A DNA stretch of 61,763 bases, taken from contig CAIVGN010000103.1 in the NCBI GenBank assembly GCA_903905455.1, forward strand, positions 1 to 61,763. The letters run 5' to 3'. The first letter of the stretch is position 1. Every line of letters starts with the position of its first letter. The DNA is from an uncultured Archangium sp. GTDB taxonomy: Bacteria > Myxococcota > Myxococcia > Myxococcales > Myxococcaceae. The notes beneath the pieces are model-generated. The model had not been told where the DNA came from. It ran no database searches and worked only from the letters and a program-made list of their open reading frames with translations. Both the position numbers and the translations under genes were made by a program. This document shows positions 1 to 9,832 of the stretch, piece by piece.

Positions 1-297
1 GCCCGAGGCCACGTCGTCGAAGAGGAACCGGCCGTCATCGAGCGTGAGCGTCACCAGCGGGGAGGTCGCCTTCAACGAGACCCGCGCCCGTGAGACCGGC
101 CGGCCATCGCGCAGCACGAAGCCTGAGACCCGCGCGCCGCGGGCCCGGGTGGCGACCGGAGACGCCGGCGCCTCGGGGTCACCCGTACGAGAGGACTCGG
201 CGACGGAGGACGGAGTCTCGACGTCATCGCCGAGCAAGGACCACACGAGCGCCAGCGCGAGGAGAAGCCCGGCGACGATGAGCAGAGACCGCTTCAC
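1..297 (-). CDS. Membrane-anchored or secreted protein with carboxypeptidase-regulatory-like domain (C-terminal part outside window)
   Basis: Only the first 99 codons lie in the window; the gene runs off the left edge. It starts with GTG at 297. The product opens MKRSLLIVAG, then a hydrophobic run to about residue 22 (a signal anchor or uncleaved signal peptide), then a low-complexity Ser/Glu/Pro linker to about residue 52. From residue 55 the pattern VSGFVLRDGRPVSRARVSL followed by DDGRFLFDDV matches the start of a carboxypeptidase regulatory-like (CarbopepD_reg) beta-sandwich, common in secreted myxobacterial proteins. No good ribosome-binding site precedes the GTG, so the start is chosen from the signal sequence. 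It is 48 bases downstream of the next gene's stop and on the same strand. The function of the missing part is unknown. Confidence 0.6.
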   Translation of the reverse strand, partial: MKRSLLIVAGLLLALALVWSLLGDDVETPSSVAESSRTGDPEAPASPVATRARGARVSGFVLRDGRPVSRARVSLKATSPLVTLTLDDGRFLFDDVASG

Positions 298-345: not shown

Positions 346-3300
346 CTACGACTTGCGGGGGTCCCGGGCGCCGGGGTCGGTCGCCTCGTCGTCCAGCAGC
401 ACGATCTCCTCGGCCTCGTCGTCATCGGTGTCGACGTCGAGCTCGAAGATCTCCACCGGGTGCTCCACCAGCGGGGCCACGACGGCCGGCGCGGAGGCCT
501 TCGCCTGCTTCTCCATCTCCTCGATCTGCTGGGCGAGGCGCTCCCGCTCCTGCTCGAGGAGCTCGTTCTCGGCGCGGGCCTCGGCGAGATCCTCCAGGTG
601 CCGCGTGGCCTCGTGCTGCAGGTCGCCGTACTTCACGCGCAGCGAGAGGAGCAGCTCCTCGACCTGCTGGCGGGCGCCCTGGGCCGCGTCGACGTCGTTC
701 TTCGCGTTGACGCGCGAGATCTCCAGCTCGGCCTCGAGCTCCGGGAGCCGGCGGCGCAGCAGGGCCACGGCCTCCTCGGACTGGGGGGCGGCGCGGGTCG
801 CCTCGGCCAACTGCGCCTCGAGGAGCGTGGCGCGCCCGCGCAGGGCGACGTTGGCGTCCTCTTCGATGGAGCGCGTGTCACGCAGCCGCGTGGCCTCGGC
901 CTCGGCGAGGTTCACCCGCTCGCGAAGCTCCTTGAGCTCGGCCTCCATCGCGCTGCGGCCGTTGAGCGAATCAGCCTGGGCGTCCTCCAACTCGGCTGCC
1001 TGGGCGCGGGCCTGGGCGAGGGAGACATCGAAGTCGAGCACCTGCCGCTTGAGCTCCCGCTCGGTGGCGGCGAGGGTGGCCACCTGGGCCGTGGCGTTCG
1101 AGAGCTGGCCTTCGAGGGCCGGTACCCGCTCCCGCAGCTGCGCGAGCTCGGGCTGCGTGTCCTTCAGCGCGGCGAGCTCGGCCTCGAGCGGGGGCAGGCG
1201 CTGCCGCAGCCGCTCCATCTCGGCCTCGAGCTGGGCCCGGGCCTCGGTCGCCGCGCGAGACTCGCCGCCGACCTGGGTGAGCGAGGTGCGCAGGGTCGTC
1301 AGCTCGGAGCGCAGGGTGTCGAGCTCCTCCTGCAGCGCGATCTTGCCCGACTGGTGCCCCCGGGCCTCGGAGAGCGCGCGGTCGATGCTGGCCTTCGCCT
1401 CGAGGTACTGTTTCTCGAGTGCGTCGTGGGCCTCCTGGGCGGCGCGACCGTCGACCTCGGCCCTGGTGGCCGCTGCCTCGAGCGAGTCCTGCAACTGGGT
1501 GCGCTGGCGCTCCAGCTCCGTCGACTTCGCCTCGAGCGCGGCCAGCTGGCGGGTGAGCTCCTCTTCGCGGACCTGCAGGGCCTTCTGGGACTCGGCGCGG
1601 TGGCCCTCGAGCGAGTCCTGGTAGGCCTTCGCCTGCTGCTCGAGCGAGCGCTGGTGCTCATCGCGCTGCGCCTGGAGCCGGCCCTCGTCTTCGGCGTGCT
1701 TCTCGTCGAGCGCGCGCCGCGAGGCCTGCCGGGTGGCCTCCAGCTCGGCGCGGGTCGCGGCCAGGGCGTCGTCGGTCTTCGTGCGCTCGGCGCGCGCCTC
1801 GTCGAGGGTGCCCACGAGCTGGGCTCGCTCGGTCCTCAGCGCCTCCGTCTCCTCGGTGAGCGTGCGCAGCCGCGCCTCGAACTCGGCGCCCGCGGCGGCG
1901 GCCACGGAGCCCGACTCGGTCAAACGGCCGATCTCCGCCTCGGTCTTCTCGCGGAGCTCGCGCTCGACGACGCGCGCGTTGAGGGCCTCCTCGAGCTCGA
2001 GCTTGAGGTGCTCGGCCTCGCTCATCGCCGTGGCGAGCGACTGGCTGAGGATGGTCCGTTCGTTCTCCAGCTTGAGGAGGCTGGCGCTGGTGGCGCCGAG
2101 GCCCTCTTCCCGCTCGCGGAGCATCGTCTCGAGGCGTTCGACCTGGGCCTTGCGCTCGTCGCGGGCCGACTCGGCGGCCGTGGCCCGGGACCGGAGTTCC
2201 TCGAGCTGCGGCTCGAGGGTGGCGATGGCCTGCTTCGCGGCGTCGAGGTCTGACGAAGCGGTCGAGAAGCGCTGCTGGGTGCTGAGCAGCTCGGCGGTGG
2301 CGGTCTCGAGCTGCTGGCGGGTCTGCGCGAGCTCGGCGCTGGTGGTCTCGAGGCGCGGTGATTTCTCGGCGAGCTCGGCGTTGGCCTGCGCGAGCTGCTG
2401 CTGCGACTCGGTGAGCGCAGCGCCCGTCGACTGCAGGGCCTGGCGCGCCTCGCCCAGCTCCGCGGTCGCGGTCTCGAGACGCGGCGACTTCTCGGCGAGC
2501 TCGGCGCTGGCCTGCGCGAATTGCTGCTCCGCGAGGGTGAGCGCGGCGCTCGTCGACTGCAGCTCCTGGCGGCTCTGCCCGAGCTCGGCAGTGGCGGTCT
2601 CGAGGCGCGGCGCCTTGTCGGCGAGCTCGGTGCTCGTCGTCTCGAGCTGCGCGCGGGCCTGGGCGAGCTCGGAGCTGGTCCGCTCCAACTCGGCGGTCGC
2701 GGTCTCGAGGCGCGGCGACTTCTCGGCGAGCTCGCGGCTCGTCAGCTCGAGCTGCGCGCGGGCCTGGGCGAGCTCGGAGCTGGTCCGCTCCAACTCCGCG
2801 GTCGCGGTCTCGAGGCGCGGCGACTTCTCGGCGAGCTCGCTGCTGGTCGACTCCAGCTGCGCGCGGGCCTCGGCGAGCTCGGCGATGGCCCGCGCCAGCT
2901 CCGCGGTGGCGCTCTCGAGGCGAGGCGACTTCTCGGAGAGTTCGCCGCTCGCGCGCTCGAGCTGCTGGCGGGCCTCGGCCAGCTCGGTGCTCGTTCGCGC
3001 GAGGTCCTGTCGCGTCTGAGACAGCTCCGCGGTCGCGCCCTCGAGGCGCGGAGCCTTCTCGGCGAGCTCCTGGCGGACCTGGGCCAGCTCGCTGCTCGTC
3101 CGCTCGAGGTCCTGCCGTGTCTGACTGAGCTCCGCGGTCGCACCCTCGAGGCGCGGAGCCTTCTCGGCGAGATCCTGGCGCACCTGGGCCAGCTCGGTGC
3201 TCGTCCGCTCGAGGTCCTGCCGCGTCTGACTGAGCTCAGCGGTCGCACCCTCGAGGCGCGGAGCCTTCTCGGCGAGATCCTGGCGAACCTGCGCCAGCTC

Positions 3301-6300
3301 GCTGCCCGTCCGCTCGAGGTCCTGCCGTGTCTGACTGAGCTCCGCGGTCGCACCCTCGAGGCGCGGAGACTTCTCGGCGAGCTCCTGGCGGGCCTCGGTG
3401 AGGGCGGCGCTGGTGGACTGCAGTTCCTGCCGCGCCTCGCCCAGCTCGGCCGTGGTGCGCTCGAGGCGGGGGGCCTTGTCGGCGAGTTCGGCGCTCACCT
3501 GCCTGAGCTGGTGCTGGGTTCCGCTCAGCTCACCGCGGGTCGCCTCGAGCTGCTCGGTGGCCTGCGCCAGCCCAGCCTTTGCCTCGGCGAGTTCCCGCTG
3601 GGTCTGCTCGAGCGAGGTGCGCAGCTGAACGACGGTGGAGACGTTCTGCTCCAGCTCGGCGGTCAGCGTCGCGAGGCGCGCGTCGCGATCGGCGGTAGCG
3701 GCCTGGGACGAGGCCAGCTGCGAGGTGAGCGCGAGGGTGGCGGCGTCGAGTTCCTGCAGGCGCAGCCGCAGCGACGCCAGCTCTCCCCGCGCCCCGGTGA
3801 GCTGCTCGGTGAGCTCTTCGCGCTCGGTGCTGGCGCGCGCCTCGGCTTCCCGGAGATCGCCCAGGAGCCCGCGCACCTGGTTCTCGAGCTCGGTGCCGCG
3901 ATCGCCGACCAGCTTCGCGTCCGACTCCAGGGTGCGGTAGCGCTTCTCGAGGTCGAGGCGCTCGAGGTCGAGGAGTTCCCGGCCCTGGGTGGTCGAGGCG
4001 AGCGAGCCCTTCGTGGCCTCGAGCTCGGCCTGCAGCGCCGCGACCTGCTGCTCGCGCTCGTGCCGGAGCGCCGCGAGTTCGCCGCGGGCGGCCGCGAGTA
4101 CGGCCTCGACCTGGGCGATGGCCTCGAGCGCGGCGGCGTGGGCGGTCTCGGCGCTGGCGCGGAGCCCACGCTCGGTGTCCAGCGCTTGCTCTCGCTGTTC
4201 GAGGGCCGACCCGAGCGCGCGCGACTGGGCGCTGGCGTCCTGGGTGGTGCGCTCGAGTTGTCCTTCTGCCCGGGCGAGGGCGCCTTCGACTTCCGAGAGC
4301 TTCGTGGCGAGCGACTCGGCGCGCTCGGAGACTTGGGTCAGCCGCGCGCCCTGCTCGGCCCGTACTTTCTCGACGTCGCTGAGCGCCCCCCGCAGATCGT
4401 CGCGCTCCATGAGGAGCAGGTCGCGGTCGTCGGTCAGCTCCTTCACCTTCGACTCGGACAGCGACAGGGCCTGCTCGAGGCCGCGAACGTGGCCCTCGGA
4501 CGTGACGAGGGTCGAGGTGAGCTCACCCGACTGGGCCAGGGTGGCGACGAGCTGCTGCTCGGTGGCCGCGAGGCGGGCCCGCTCGACGTTCAACTCGCGC
4601 TCGAGCTCGGCGCGGCTGCCCGTCACCGCGGCGAGCTGGGCTTCGAGATCGCTGATGCGCGCGCGATCGCCCTCGACCACGGCGCTGAGCCGCTCCGAGT
4701 TCTCGCGGCTGACGCGCAGCAGCGCTTCCAGCTCGCTGACGCGGGCGCGGGTCGCCTCGAGCTCCTCGCGCAACTGCGTCGAAGCAATGGCGCCCTGCCC
4801 CAGCTGCTGCTCGAGATCGGCCAGCTTCGTGCCCAGCTGCTGCAGTTCGGCCGCGGTCTGCGCCGCGCGCTGCTCGTACTCGCCGCTGGAGGTCCGCCAG
4901 CGCTCTTCCGAGGCACGCGCCCCCGCGAGCTCGGCCTCGAGCCGCTCGGAGGAGGCCTTGAGGGCGGAGGCCTCGGTCTCGGCGCCGGCCTTCTCGGTGG
5001 TGCGCTGGGCCAGCTCGCGGTTCAGCTCGGCGAGGCGGGCCTGCTCGCGCTGGAACTCGGCCTCGAGGCCCAGGCGCGCCTGGTGCTCCACGTCGAGCGA
5101 GCGCACGGCAGAGAGGCGATCCGACTCCTTGCGCTCGACGAGATCGCCTGCCTCGGCCAGCTGCCTGCGCACGTCGGCGAAGCCCGCTTCGAGGCCTTCG
5201 ATGGCCTTGAGGGCGTCGGTGCGCGCGTCGGCCAGGCGCAGCTCGCGCTCCCTTGCCTCGCCCAGCTCCCGCTCGCGGCCGCCGAGGGACTCGCGGATGC
5301 GCTCGATGGCGATCTTCGTGCGCTCGTGCTCCACGCGCTCGGAGGCCGCCTCGTCCTGCACGCGGCGGAGCTCTTCGTAGGCCTTGGCCAGGCGCAGCCG
5401 GCTGTCTTCCAGCTGGGTGGCGATCTCCTCGCGACGCGCGCGCTCGAGACGCACCGATTCTTGCGAGGCCAGCGCGTGGATCGCGGAGTCCTTCTGCTGG
5501 CGCGAGAGGGCCTCGAGCTCGGTGCGCGTCGAGGTGACTCGTCCCTCTGCGTCGATGGCGCGCTCGCGGGCGACCTGCAGCTCGGCCTCCATCTGCCGGA
5601 TGCGGGTGGCGAGGTCTTCGCGGTCGCGCACCACGTCGGGCCGATCGCGGATCGACTCGAGCTGGGCGGTGAGCCGGCTGACGGCGTCCTGGGCGCCCTC
5701 GAGCTGCTGCCGGGTCTCGGTGAGATCGGTCTCGCGCACCTGCAGGTCCGCGGTCTTCTTCTGCAGGACCTCCTTGAGGCGCTCGGTGCGATCTTTCCAT
5801 TCGCGCGCGCGGGTGGCGGCGTCTTCCAGCTTGCCCCCGGTGAACGCCAGCGGCTCGGGCGGCAGTTGCACCCAGGTGGGGTCGAAGTTGCGCACCTCTT
5901 CGTGGCCGGCGAGCACCACGTAGTAGGCGGCCTCGCTCAGGCCCGCGAGCGAGCCATCCACCTGCAGGCCCTCGCCGCGCTCGAAGGCGAGCTGGTACCC
6001 GAGCACCGGCGACTGGGTGGCGACGTCGACGGACTTGAAGTGCACCGTGAGCGCGTCGAGCAGCTGCCCGTAGGTGGGCGGCACGTCGGTCTCATCGGCC
6101 TCGAGCATCGTGGCCAGCGAGAGGCCCGCCGGGTTGCGCAGCCCTCCCATGAGGTAGCCGCTCTTGGCGACCAGCCGGGCGATGTCCTTGAGCAGCTCGG
6201 GCGCGCGCACGTACGGCGCGAGATCCGAGACGATGACCAGGTCGAAGCTGCCCGACTCGAAGTCGTCGAAGACGGCCGGACGGAAGCGCAGCGTGGGGCT

Positions 6301-6516
6301 CGCCAGCCGGGCCTGGGCCTCCTGCACGGCGGCGAGATCGTTGTCCGCGGCGACCACGATGCGCGCGCCGCGGGTCGAGAGGAAGCGGGCCGACTGGCCG
6401 AGCGTGGAAGCGACCGCGCCGATCTCCAGCACGCGCCTGCGGGCGACGAGGCTCTCGGCGAAGATGTAGCGCGGGAGCAGCTCACTCTGCCCCAGCCGCT
6501 TGAAGGTCGAAGACAC
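346..6516 (-). CDS. Giant coiled-coil protein with N-terminal methyltransferase-like domain (2056 aa)
   Basis: Residues 1-230 have a class I methyltransferase fold pattern: VLEIGAVASTLGQSA at the motif I position, an acidic strand end VVAADND, and FDLVIVSDLAPY. Motif I lacks the usual GxGxG glycines, so SAM binding is doubtful. Residues about 250-1990 are almost continuous Glu/Arg/Ala/Leu/Gln-rich heptads, a predicted coiled coil of SMC/myosin type but without ATPase heads. Residues about 1016-1420 hold eleven copies of a PRLE-headed repeat spaced 35 or 42 residues. The C-terminus is very acidic (DVDTDDDEAEE) and ends DPRKS. No signal peptide or membrane segment is seen, so it is likely cytoplasmic. 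The ATG at 6516 faces the divergent gene at 6604. I do not recognise an ortholog; a scaffold or cytoskeletal role is inference only. The coding assignment itself is secure because the whole frame is coherent. Confidence 0.9.
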   Translation of the reverse strand: MSSTFKRLGQSELLPRYIFAESLVARRRVLEIGAVASTLGQSARFLSTRGARIVVAADNDLAAVQEAQARLASPTLRFRPAVFDDFESGSFDLVIVSDLAPYVRAPELLKDIARLVAKSGYLMGGLRNPAGLSLATMLEADETDVPPTYGQLLDALTVHFKSVDVATQSPVLGYQLAFERGEGLQVDGSLAGLSEAAYYVVLAGHEEVRNFDPTWVQLPPEPLAFTGGKLEDAATRAREWKDRTERLKEVLQKKTADLQVRETDLTETRQQLEGAQDAVSRLTAQLESIRDRPDVVRDREDLATRIRQMEAELQVARERAIDAEGRVTSTRTELEALSRQQKDSAIHALASQESVRLERARREEIATQLEDSRLRLAKAYEELRRVQDEAASERVEHERTKIAIERIRESLGGRERELGEARERELRLADARTDALKAIEGLEAGFADVRRQLAEAGDLVERKESDRLSAVRSLDVEHQARLGLEAEFQREQARLAELNRELAQRTTEKAGAETEASALKASSERLEAELAGARASEERWRTSSGEYEQRAAQTAAELQQLGTKLADLEQQLGQGAIASTQLREELEATRARVSELEALLRVSRENSERLSAVVEGDRARISDLEAQLAAVTGSRAELERELNVERARLAATEQQLVATLAQSGELTSTLVTSEGHVRGLEQALSLSESKVKELTDDRDLLLMERDDLRGALSDVEKVRAEQGARLTQVSERAESLATKLSEVEGALARAEGQLERTTQDASAQSRALGSALEQREQALDTERGLRASAETAHAAALEAIAQVEAVLAAARGELAALRHEREQQVAALQAELEATKGSLASTTQGRELLDLERLDLEKRYRTLESDAKLVGDRGTELENQVRGLLGDLREAEARASTEREELTEQLTGARGELASLRLRLQELDAATLALTSQLASSQAATADRDARLATLTAELEQNVSTVVQLRTSLEQTQRELAEAKAGLAQATEQLEATRGELSGTQHQLRQVSAELADKAPRLERTTAELGEARQELQSTSAALTEARQELAEKSPRLEGATAELSQTRQDLERTGSELAQVRQDLAEKAPRLEGATAELSQTRQDLERTSTELAQVRQDLAEKAPRLEGATAELSQTRQDLERTSSELAQVRQELAEKAPRLEGATAELSQTRQDLARTSTELAEARQQLERASGELSEKSPRLESATAELARAIAELAEARAQLESTSSELAEKSPRLETATAELERTSSELAQARAQLELTSRELAEKSPRLETATAELERTSSELAQARAQLETTSTELADKAPRLETATAELGQSRQELQSTSAALTLAEQQFAQASAELAEKSPRLETATAELGEARQALQSTGAALTESQQQLAQANAELAEKSPRLETTSAELAQTRQQLETATAELLSTQQRFSTASSDLDAAKQAIATLEPQLEELRSRATAAESARDERKAQVERLETMLREREEGLGATSASLLKLENERTILSQSLATAMSEAEHLKLELEEALNARVVERELREKTEAEIGRLTESGSVAAAAGAEFEARLRTLTEETEALRTERAQLVGTLDEARAERTKTDDALAATRAELEATRQASRRALDEKHAEDEGRLQAQRDEHQRSLEQQAKAYQDSLEGHRAESQKALQVREEELTRQLAALEAKSTELERQRTQLQDSLEAAATRAEVDGRAAQEAHDALEKQYLEAKASIDRALSEARGHQSGKIALQEELDTLRSELTTLRTSLTQVGGESRAATEARAQLEAEMERLRQRLPPLEAELAALKDTQPELAQLRERVPALEGQLSNATAQVATLAATERELKRQVLDFDVSLAQARAQAAELEDAQADSLNGRSAMEAELKELRERVNLAEAEATRLRDTRSIEEDANVALRGRATLLEAQLAEATRAAPQSEEAVALLRRRLPELEAELEISRVNAKNDVDAAQGARQQVEELLLSLRVKYGDLQHEATRHLEDLAEARAENELLEQERERLAQQIEEMEKQAKASAPAVVAPLVEHPVEIFELDVDTDDDEAEEIVLLDDEATDPGARDPRKS
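2347..3471 (-). repeat. PRLE tandem coding repeats, 105 or 126 bp units (11 heads)
   Basis: Inside the giant coiled-coil gene, the tetrapeptide PRLE, preceded by A or S, recurs eleven times. The heads run from bases 3471-3460 to 2358-2347. Spacing is 35 residues (105 bp) in seven intervals and 42 residues (126 bp) in three, always a multiple of the heptad. The four central units (heads near 3351, 3246, 3141 and 3036) are nearly identical at DNA level, which suggests recent tandem duplication; the outer ones are diverged. Each unit carries one proline, so the helix should kink at regular intervals. Confidence 0.9.
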
Positions 6517-6603
6517 GCGCCGCGGACTCTACCCCTGCGCGCAAGCTCGCCAAGTTATGGGTCGCAATGGGGTCTCGAGGCAGGGCGTACTACCGTCCGC
6601 CCC

Positions 6604-7434
6604 ATGGACTCCCAACGCTCTTTCGGTGCCCGGCTGGTCCGCGCCTTTCGCAACCTGGTGCTGCTGACCCTGATCCTCGGGCTGGGCGGCGCCGCGCTCT
6701 ACGCCACGTCGCTGGTCAACGCGCGCACCTACACGCTGGAGGTGCGCGGAGGGCAGTTGGTGGTGCTCAAGGGCAAGCTGATGCCCACCGGCGCCGACCC
6801 GTGGAACCCCTCGGACTCGCTCCTCGCCGATGCCTACGCCCCGGTGGACCTCGAAGGGAACACCGCGCTGACGGTGGTGGGTCAGAAGTTCGAAGATCGG
6901 GACGAGCTCGACCGGGCCCTCTTCCAGGTGCTCGAGCTGCTCGCCCGCCCCCGGCTGGCCTCCGACGTGCCGAAGGATCTCGACCGCGGCCTGACCCTGG
7001 TGCGCCGCGCGGAGAAGCTCAACGGGCTCACCGAGGCCCAGCGCACCTCGCTCAAGAAGATGCAGACCGACGTGGCCTATTTCCTGGCGCGGGTGCGGCT
7101 CGACGACGCGCGCCGGCAGCTCGAAGAGGCGCTCGAGCAGCTCAAGCTCGCGGCCGAGTCGGACTCGAAGACCCGGCCCCAGGCGGCGCTGATGCTGCTG
7201 GCCGTCGAGCCGCAGGTGAAGTTGCTGGCCACCACGCTGCGCGCGACGACCATGACCAACGACGCGGCGGGTGGGCTGGCGAAGGCGCTCGAGCCGCAGC
7301 TCCAGGCGCTCTTCAACTCGCTGGGCAAGCAGGTGCTGGACGCCGTGCCCACCCCTGCCCCGGCTCCGGTTCCCGCCCCGGTCCAAGCGCCCCCTCCGGC
7401 GCCTGAACCCGAGCGGGCTGATGCCGGGAAGTGA
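6604..7434 (+). CDS. Membrane-anchored protein with Pro-rich C-terminus, unknown function
   Basis: A 276-residue product. The ATG at 6604 starts MDSQRSFGARLVRAF, followed by one transmembrane segment at about residues 17-38 (LVLLTLILGLGGAALYATSL), giving a signal-anchor topology with the bulk outside. Residues about 40-90 resemble a small beta domain (YTLEVRGGQLVVLKGKLMP); residues about 95-235 are helical and repeat-like, rich in Leu, Arg and Glu; the tail is an Ala/Pro-rich spacer (APAPVPAPVQAPPPAPEPE). It diverges from the giant coiled-coil gene (87 bases apart) and its TGA abuts the TCA of hpt on the other strand with no spare base. No enzyme motif is visible. It resembles unnamed myxobacterial proteins found beside hpt, but I cannot give a role. 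Confidence 0.75.
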   Translation: MDSQRSFGARLVRAFRNLVLLTLILGLGGAALYATSLVNARTYTLEVRGGQLVVLKGKLMPTGADPWNPSDSLLADAYAPVDLEGNTALTVVGQKFEDRDELDRALFQVLELLARPRLASDVPKDLDRGLTLVRRAEKLNGLTEAQRTSLKKMQTDVAYFLARVRLDDARRQLEEALEQLKLAAESDSKTRPQAALMLLAVEPQVKLLATTLRATTMTNDAAGGLAKALEPQLQALFNSLGKQVLDAVPTPAPAPVPAPVQAPPPAPEPERADAGK

Positions 7435-7968
7435 TCAGTCGGTGCGCATCACGCCGACGAACGGCAGGTTGCGGTACTTCTCTCCGTAGTCGAGCCCGTA
7501 GCCGACGACGAAGCGGTCCTCGATGACGAAGCCCTTGTAGTCGATGGGGATCTTCACCTTCGCGCGCGACGGCTTCTCGAGCAGCGTGGCGACCTTGAGC
7601 GACGCCGGGTGCCGCGCGGCGAGGTTCTCGAGGAGGAACTGCATGGTCAGGCCGGTGTCGATGATGTCCTCGACCACCAGCACGTGGCGGCCGTTCATCG
7701 GCTTGGTGAGATCGCTGGTGATGCGCACCTCGCCGGTGGTCTCGGTGCCGCCCTGGTAGCTGGAGAGCCCCATCAACTCCATGGTCAGCGGCAGGTCGAT
7801 CTGCCGCGCGAGATCGGTGAGGAAGAAGATCGACCCCTTCATGATGCCCACCAGGGTCAGGTCCTTGCCCTGGTAGTCCTTGCTGATCTGCGCGCCGAGT
7901 TCCTTCGTGCGCGCGGCGAGCTGCTCCGCGGTGAGCATCACTTCGACGGTGGTGTCGTGAAAAGCCAT
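7435..7968 (-). CDS. hpt: Hypoxanthine phosphoribosyltransferase
   Basis: A 177-residue type I phosphoribosyltransferase that converts hypoxanthine (and usually guanine) plus PRPP to the nucleotide, in cytoplasmic purine salvage. The PRPP-binding loop VLVVEDIIDTGLTM lies at about residues 96-109. The flexible-loop dipeptide region LSSYQGGTETTGEV (68-81) and the C-terminal base-binding segment DRFVVGYGLDYGEKYRNLPFVG match bacterial Hpt/HprT, and the length is typical. It is the last gene of a long minus-strand run, 30 bases after upp, and converges on the gene ending at 7434. Confidence 0.96.
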   Translation of the reverse strand: MAFHDTTVEVMLTAEQLAARTKELGAQISKDYQGKDLTLVGIMKGSIFFLTDLARQIDLPLTMELMGLSSYQGGTETTGEVRITSDLTKPMNGRHVLVVEDIIDTGLTMQFLLENLAARHPASLKVATLLEKPSRAKVKIPIDYKGFVIEDRFVVGYGLDYGEKYRNLPFVGVMRTD

Positions 7969-7998
7969 GTCGCTACTTCCTTGTGAGGGCGTGAGAGG

Positions 7999-8817
7999 TC
8001 AGACGTATGCGTTGTTCATCACTTCGCCCATGCCGCCGCCGCCGGGCACGATGTACTGGCGATCGTCGAGGCCGCGCTCCTTCTCCCACAGCTCGCCGGG
8101 CGCGGTGCTGAGCACCTCCGGCGGGGAGAGCCCACGGTCGAGCCGCAGCGCGAAGAGGATCGCGTCGGGGTGATCGGTGGTCATGCGCTTGATGAACTCG
8201 GGCGTGACGATGAGGTTCAGGCAGACGATCTTGCGGATCTTCCCCGGGACCTTCTTCTTGTACATGGTGATCGCCGTCGACAACGAGCTGCCGGTGGCGC
8301 CCATGGGGTCGGGGAAGAGGACGATGGCGTTGTCCACGTCACCGCCGATCTTCGAGCCGCCGATGTTGCTGCCCACCACGTGCTCCGCGGCGTCGAGCTC
8401 GCGGCTCATGATGATGTGGTCCTGGCGCACCAGGCGGGGCGTGAGGATGGTGTTGAGCAGATCGTAGGTGACCTGGCTGGGCAGCGTGCCCGCGCGCGCG
8501 ATGTTCACCGAGATGGCGCGCACCTCGGGGTCGAGGATCTCGCCCTGGTAGATGCCCCGCGGCGTGTACTGGATCATGCGCGAGGGGATGGTCACCTGCC
8601 GGCGCGGGAACTCGTGGTTCACCACCATGGTGACCATGTCCGTGTACAGCGTGCGGACCAGGGTGTTCACCTGCGGCTGCTGGGTGTCCTTGGCGCACAG
8701 CGAGGCGAGCAGCGAGAGCAGGTAGGGGTTCCCCACGAGGTGCACGTTGGGGCCGTAGAAGTGCTTCAGCTCCGACAGCGCGTAGGGAACGTTTTCGTAG
8801 AGCGAATCTCTCATCAT
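7999..8817 (-). CDS. upp: Uracil phosphoribosyltransferase, long form
   Basis: Makes UMP from uracil and PRPP for pyrimidine salvage. Signature features are the ARAGTLPS segment (about 107-114), the PRPP loop PDPMGATGSSLS (169-180) and the terminal uracil-binding motif IVPGGGGMGE (256-265, compare IIPGLGDAGD in E. coli). At 272 residues it is about 60 longer than the usual 208-210-residue enzyme; the extra length is at the N-terminus and in an insert near residues 137-163. The start is the first of two ATG codons (8817), two bases after the tdk stop. A protein that aligns with Upp but carries such extensions could have different allostery; uracil specificity itself is inferred from family membership. 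Confidence 0.88.
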   Translation of the reverse strand: MMRDSLYENVPYALSELKHFYGPNVHLVGNPYLLSLLASLCAKDTQQPQVNTLVRTLYTDMVTMVVNHEFPRRQVTIPSRMIQYTPRGIYQGEILDPEVRAISVNIARAGTLPSQVTYDLLNTILTPRLVRQDHIIMSRELDAAEHVVGSNIGGSKIGGDVDNAIVLFPDPMGATGSSLSTAITMYKKKVPGKIRKIVCLNLIVTPEFIKRMTTDHPDAILFALRLDRGLSPPEVLSTAPGELWEKERGLDDRQYIVPGGGGMGEVMNNAYV

Positions 8818-8819
8818 GG

Positions 8820-9422
8820 TCACCGGCTGAAGAGTTCGAGGTTCTGCGGGGGCGTGGCTTCGACGGGGGTAGGCACGTGACACTTGCGACAACGGGCTTC
8901 GTACGCCCCGGCCGCGCCGACCACCACGCGCTCGGCCGAGTCCGACAGGCGCTGGCTGCGGTTGGCGGGGTTGCCGCACACCACGCAGATCGCCAATTCC
9001 TTGGTGATGTACTCGGCCACCGCGAGCAACTGCGGCATCGGCTCGAAGGGCTTGCCCTGGTAGTCCTGGTCGAGGCCGGCGCAGACCACGCGAATGCCCT
9101 TCGCGGTGAGCGCTTCGATCACCGGCAGCACGTCCATGCCCAGGAACTGCACCTCGTCGATGCCCACCACCTCGGTGTCGGGCTTCAAGTGGTGGAGGAT
9201 CTCCTCGGCGCGGGTCACCGGCGTGGCGACGATCTTGATCTGCGAGTGGCTGACCACCGCGAGCTCGTCGTAGCGCGTGTCGATCTGCGGCTTGAAGACC
9301 TGCACCTTCTGCTTGCCGTAGAGCGCCCGCTTGAGGCGGCGGATGAGCTCCTCGGTCTTGCCCGAGAACATCGATCCGCAGATGACTTCGATCCACCCGA
9401 TGTCTTTGGGGAACTGGTGCAT
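8820..9422 (-). CDS. tdk: Thymidine kinase, type II
   Basis: Phosphorylates thymidine (and deoxyuridine) with ATP in pyrimidine deoxynucleoside salvage. From the ATG at 9422 the protein is 200 residues. The P-loop GSMFSGKT is at 16-23 and the Walker B-like IDEVQF at 88-93; the structural zinc is bound by C146/C149 and C178/C181 in the lasso domain, all present. A GTG two codons upstream (9428) overlaps the preceding TGA as GTGA and is an equally possible start. It sits between the NUDIX gene and upp, two bases before upp. Confidence 0.95.
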   Translation of the reverse strand: MHQFPKDIGWIEVICGSMFSGKTEELIRRLKRALYGKQKVQVFKPQIDTRYDELAVVSHSQIKIVATPVTRAEEILHHLKPDTEVVGIDEVQFLGMDVLPVIEALTAKGIRVVCAGLDQDYQGKPFEPMPQLLAVAEYITKELAICVVCGNPANRSQRLSDSAERVVVGAAGAYEARCRKCHVPTPVEATPPQNLELFSR

Positions 9423-9424
9423 GG

Positions 9425-9832
9425 TCACATGTCCAGGTCGAGCAGCTTGGCCAGGGTGCGCGCGTCGGCGTCGGGGAACTTGAACTGACCCATCTCGTCG
9501 AGCCCCACCCAGCGGTGATCGGCGACCACCGCGTGGCTCACCTCTTGATCAGCGCGCGCGGGCCGGCAGTGGAAGACCGTGAAGTCGAGGGTGTAGCTGT
9601 CGTACTCGTGGTGCGTGGTCATCGCCTGCTCGTCGACGTCGACGTCCAGGCCCAGGCGCTCCTTGAGCTCCCGCTGGAGCGCGCCGGCGTCGGTCTCGCC
9701 GTGGTGCACGCGCCCGCCGGGGAACTCCCAGAGCAGGGGCAACGAGGCCGTCTTCGAACGCTGGGTGATCAGGTAGCGGCCGGGCTCTCGCTCGAGCATC
9801 GCGCCGACGACGCGGATATGGCGACGGTTCAC
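9425..9832 (-). CDS. NUDIX hydrolase, MutT-like, with altered Nudix box
   Basis: A 135-residue single-domain NUDIX protein of the (deoxy)nucleoside triphosphate sanitising type. The Nudix box GRVHHGETDAGALQRELKER at about residues 39-58 fits Gx5Ex7REUxEExGU except that the second Glu of the EE pair, a metal ligand in E. coli MutT, is Arg (REL-K-ER). It begins RRHIRVVGAMLEREPGRYLITQRS and has the LLWEFPGG motif typical of MutT/CTP pyrophosphohydrolases. It lies 27 bases after nadD and overlaps or abuts tdk, so it fits a nucleotide-salvage operon. Substrate is unknown, and the R for E change may lower activity or shift metal use. Confidence 0.85.
   Translation of the reverse strand: MNRRHIRVVGAMLEREPGRYLITQRSKTASLPLLWEFPGGRVHHGETDAGALQRELKERLGLDVDVDEQAMTTHHEYDSYTLDFTVFHCRPARADQEVSHAVVADHRWVGLDEMGQFKFPDADARTLAKLLDLDM

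Follow-up and report, generated by a model that had tools for sequence, protein, structure and literature searches.

The window, which is the whole stretch of 61,763 nucleotides that was analysed from an uncultured Archangium sp., carries on its minus strand a gene for a protein of 2,056 residues in which a methyltransferase-type head is followed by a neck, a coiled-coil rod of very great length and, at the end, an acidic tail. Our preferred reading, to which we give about even chances, is that this protein is a cytoplasmic scaffold in which a pseudo-methyltransferase serves as docking head on the rod. It belongs to a protein family that extends through the phylum and is apparently unstudied. 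The open reading frame (346..6516) is complete, as the giant protein proposed in an earlier note on this DNA had implied, and occurs only once in its genome. The gene is real, because similar heads were found in 119 of the 145 genomes of the order (the weakest of these matches being intact methyltransferases and not family members) and because synonymous change in the head far exceeds amino-acid change. The features of the locus are as follows.

346..6516, minus strand: whole gene for the putative pseudo-methyltransferase-headed coiled-coil protein, 2,056 aa, GTG start (open reading frame and relatives)
5842..6516, minus strand: methyltransferase-type head, residues 1-225 (Pfam Methyltransf_11, profile match, PDB class I methyltransferases)
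6379..6429, minus strand: rebuilt motif I, residues 30-46, LEIGAVASTLGQSARFL (alignment and tree)
6400..6408, minus strand: three-residue insertion S37-T38-L39 in the motif I loop, common to the class (alignment gap and tree)
5317..5841, minus strand: neck, residues 226 to ~400, the first part of the coiled coil, containing LAxQExxRLERARREE (kept between genera)
517..5316, minus strand: variable rod, residues ~401-2000, with heptad periodicity and a weak patch near 1520-1660
2236..3474, minus strand: eleven 35- or 42-residue repeats starting [AS]PRLE, residues 1015-1427 (this species only, among those sampled)
349..516, minus strand: acidic tail, residues 2001-2056, EIFELDVDTDDDEAEEIVLLDDEA
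6604..7434, plus strand: divergent, conserved neighbour of 276 aa with one hydrophobic segment near its N-terminus, probably membrane-spanning, without a Pfam family
7435..7968, minus strand: hypoxanthine phosphoribosyltransferase (HPRT)-type gene, named from its sequence, a conserved neighbour

A plus-strand open reading frame of 1,637 aa at 2521-7434 is mostly antisense to the rod gene, and only its part at 6604-7434 was taken as a gene. At the contig end, positions 1-297 (minus strand) hold the start of a gene that is cut off there; the related gene in L032 encodes 722 aa.

When the head was compared with known proteins it was found to match Pfam Methyltransf_11 at 31-33 bits against a cut-off of 21.2, the family profile matched class I methyltransferases in the PDB with a best E of 8.6e-8, and the head profile matched intact methyltransferases outside the family with a probability of 99.6. 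The profile similarity to class I SAM-dependent methyltransferases covers the Rossmann-like core, and judging from these matches, which agree with one another and with the methyltransferase-like head described earlier, the head most likely keeps the class I fold. AlphaFold2 was run twice on the head and gave pLDDT values of 37.5 and 32.9 from an input of 14 sequences that were too alike. WD40-repeat proteins that came up as PDB relatives in a single-sequence search were dismissed since their scores were sums of tiny repeat matches, and a scan of viral contigs found no relatives. Although the head scores above the family cut-off, it differs from the class I enzymes of Methyltransf_11 in that its motif I is a longer loop without GxGxG. 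The nearest head relatives with an intact motif I found outside the family, L073 and L074, are methyltransferase-glycosyltransferase fusions of the same phylum whose heads resemble that of the rod protein but have GxGxG intact. In L073, L074 and L076 such intact heads begin proteins of ~1,100 aa, and the glycosyltransferase domains that follow were confirmed for L073.

In the window head motif I is LEIGAVASTLGQSARF, numbered E31-I-G33-A-V35-A-S-T-L-G40-Q-S42, whereas in intact relatives it is D-x-G-x-G-x-G-Y-G or near. Glycine at position 35 was found in 0 of 39 class members, the class sample being the heads of the Myxococcia set, compared to 6 of 6 intact relatives, and neither the window head nor the 39 class heads have the glycine-rich E/D-x-G-x-G-x-G of active class I enzymes. 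The EIGAVAS pointed out in the earlier note is therefore confirmed, and the loss of GxGxG is common to all sampled class heads, nearly all of which also have three residues inserted at 37-39. Of the 39 heads of the Myxococcia set, 33 have S or T at position 42 and all retain E31; D58 is D or E in 31, and G33 and G40 are mostly retained. The first motif I glycine is also missing in Myxococcus-like genera (LEVDAVAS); this genus label and Anaeromyxobacter-like are inferred, and loci L032-L044 are named. Four heads of family f11, elsewhere in the phylum, have LEIGCGDGxG or near. The Pfam model is matched from its first position by L093 and from position 4-5 by the window head. When a tree was made with the motif columns left out, the class formed a supported clade (SH-aLRT 99), with the long-branch row L107 inside it, and the change from intact to lost motif I was one step on this tree, which came from a quick search and has several open forks. 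Because the loop is still nearly intact in a related family, the change is derived and not random decay. The conserved abnormality of motif I therefore favours a pseudoenzyme or an altered ligand site, which is in line with the pseudoenzyme or ligand sensor suggested earlier, but the key acidic residues are mostly retained. With E31, G33, G40 and D58 preserved in most heads, the head might still bind SAM or a different nucleotide, and it might have a SAM pocket of unusual form. An intact SAM pocket was what the earlier note had set against its own reading; by sequence, motif I is not intact.

In the remainder of the protein, from residue ~197 to ~2000, the power at the heptad period (3.5) stood to that of shuffled sequence in a ratio of 3.6-17, with one weak patch at ~1520-1660 where the ratio was 2.9, 0.2 and 1.7, so the earlier estimate of about 1,750 heptad residues was nearly right. 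The rod has very few F, W, Y and I residues and, judged from composition alone, no membrane segment is evident, which agrees with the claim that the protein has no membrane anchor. Residues 226 to ~400 are conserved between genera, and beyond them the identity to distant relatives is that of coiled-coil background. The [AS]PRLE...AEK repeat, present eleven times and missed in the earlier note, is missing from all other sampled orthologues. The acidic end that was claimed is real in the window protein but it is confined to close relatives and a few others, the C-terminal ends in other genera being Pro-rich or basic. In comparisons with nine relatives, head identity was 80-95% and head dN/dS 0.05-0.25. 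For the rod, dN/dS was 0.44-0.82 in full-length comparisons, values that are inflated by uncertain alignment, and 0.17 against L035 in a comparison limited to the first 288 residues of the rod. These ratios indicate that the head is under strong purifying selection and the rod under much less.

A search of the phylum reached a large number of other families that have long open frames, the weaker matches including some methyltransferase-glycosyltransferase fusions. Methyltransferase-type heads on coiled coils are found across Myxococcota and are near-universal in the window's family. For the architecture that was unrecognised in the earlier note there is indeed no named family beyond the head, and the protein falls in no known coiled-coil family that has a name. 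The architecture is not unique to this genome, however, but that of a family spread through the phylum. Complete members have 329 to 2,326 residues, and three reduced genomes (2.1-2.7 Mb) have versions of 714-757 residues with the same architecture. The rod gene is absent in family f2, and in genus g34 (L114 and L115) only a decayed head of ~200 aa, with no rod, lies beside the membrane-protein gene; the rod gene is therefore dispensable in some lineages.

When the neighbouring genes were examined it was found that the HPRT, single-pass membrane protein and rod genes are clustered in most of the order as well as in families f27 and f31, and that the membrane gene adjoins the rod gene in nearly all Myxococcaceae and in f3, f6, f8, f9, f27 and f31. 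The membrane gene is inverted in Myxococcaceae and co-directional in the probable ancestral order. Downstream of the rod gene several genera have dapF, RR-GAF-GGDEF-type and RR-DUF4388 genes, and Anaeromyxobacter-like genomes have a PilZ gene. In two distant genomes T2SSE/PilT-type ATPase genes lie directly beside the rod gene (L060:9083-10639 and L107:9193-10395). The window has at 7435-9428 a nucleotide-salvage cluster of the HPRT-type gene, a UPRTase-like gene (7999-8880) and a thymidine kinase gene (8820-9428), and HPRT and UPRTase-like genes recur beside the rod locus in other families of the phylum. The RR-GAF-GGDEF neighbour, of 616 residues, corresponds in length and type of domains to MXAN_5053 of M. 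xanthus, a response regulator (PMC4671073) of 617 codons (PMC4877007). From gene order and position the M. xanthus rod orthologue is probably MXAN_5055, and in the literature searched no mention of MXAN 5051, 5052, 5054, or 5055 was found.

In the scaffold reading, the SAM-binding glycine loop would have been swapped for a conserved, longer loop while the class I fold was kept. Since this glycine loop is replaced, the head most likely does not methylate, and it may have become a docking module or one gated by a small ligand. The neck and rod would form a long coiled coil, at most ~270 nm if it is parallel and fully extended, that could space or gather partners, and the rod length, which is not fixed, would alter through internal heptad duplication. 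What the analysis shows is the gene, the homology of the head, the rebuilt loop with its conservation, the heptad rod, the family across the phylum and the conserved gene neighbourhood. Loss of catalysis, oligomerisation, the docking partner and the cellular role, including the cytoskeletal role suggested earlier, are what we infer. A wider form of this proposal, that such proteins are cytoskeletal or organising rods throughout the phylum, with the retired methyltransferase head as a docking or nucleotide-sensing module and a rod length that evolves by repeat duplication, is put forward only tentatively.

The same evidence bears on other explanations. If the head, despite its unusual loop, were still a methyltransferase that is active or binds SAM, and the rod kept it at a distance as a WbdD-like molecular ruler, the mostly retained acidic E31 in motif I and D58 after beta 2 and the near-intact motif in the related f11 would be accounted for, and WbdD, with a methyltransferase and a kinase on a coiled-coil ruler, is a precedent (PMC5082667). 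This is unlikely, however, because motif I is lost, with no glycine at position 35 in any of the 39 heads, a loop that is three residues longer and the first glycine gone as well in Myxococcus-like genera, and because the length varies freely, from ~330 to ~2,330 aa in total, unlike that of a fixed ruler; moreover, the Pfam scan found no kinase domain. The adjacency of the membrane gene, and its co-direction with the rod gene in the probable ancestral order, would fit a rod that is anchored to the single-pass membrane protein and acts at the cell envelope. Adjacency is no proof of partnership since each of the two proteins also occurs without the other, the membrane protein in f2 and the rod in g36 and f7, which rules out an obligate link, and in f11 the two genes lie apart; we hold this role to be improbable.

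That the protein regulates type IV pili or polarity in the manner of FrzS is suggested by the RR-GAF-GGDEF-type, RR-DUF4388 and PilZ genes near the rod in some families and by the adjoining ATPase genes in L060 and L107, but G127 and G142 keep the family without a PilT above the cut-off, f2 has PilT and MglA without the rod, and the c-di-GMP genes reported as important for pilus motility or development do not include MXAN_5053 (PMC4877007). A comparison of 21 genomes, in which the MglA query sequence was judged by its strong matches, did not support a link of the rod to pili or MglA, and we have little expectation that the protein is such a regulator. That it is an SMC/Rad50-like chromosome protein is very improbable indeed: NCBIfam SMC_prok_B scored 174 bits over the rod, but the cut-off is 567 bits, scores of that size are typical for any long coiled coil, and the Pfam scan found no ATPase domain. 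The NCBIfam matches of the rod (SMC, Rad50, HmpF and others) were all far under their cut-offs and were taken as coiled-coil composition.

Myxobacteria are models of cell polarity, movement and development, and the rod protein, one of the very large proteins that they most widely retain, appears to have neither a name nor a study in the literature searched. If the scaffold reading is true, methyltransferase-type heads join the retired enzyme and signalling domains that head coiled-coil organisers, and the change from an enzyme to a structural part could be followed by means of the near-intact branch that survives. Among known systems, WbdD of E. coli O9a likewise has an N-terminal methyltransferase with a long coiled coil behind it, but WbdD is a working enzyme that also carries a kinase domain and binds the membrane with one end, and the length of the O antigen is set by that of its coil (PMC5082667), whereas in the rod protein motif I is lost, the length varies freely and a kinase between the methyltransferase and the coiled coil was not found in the Pfam scan. 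FrzS and AglZ of M. xanthus begin with a domain that has a known signalling fold but lacks the key residues, with a coiled coil after it, and FrzS is a precedent for an inactive receiver-type head on such a coil (PMC1974792, PMC11580455). The rod protein has a long coiled coil after its head too, many times longer than the 258 residues of the FrzS coil, but its head is of methyltransferase type and not a receiver, and no Response_reg domain was found in the Pfam scan. Because the head differs it is not a member of the FrzS/AglZ family, and by analogy it is in its working principle that the rod protein would resemble FrzS and AglZ.
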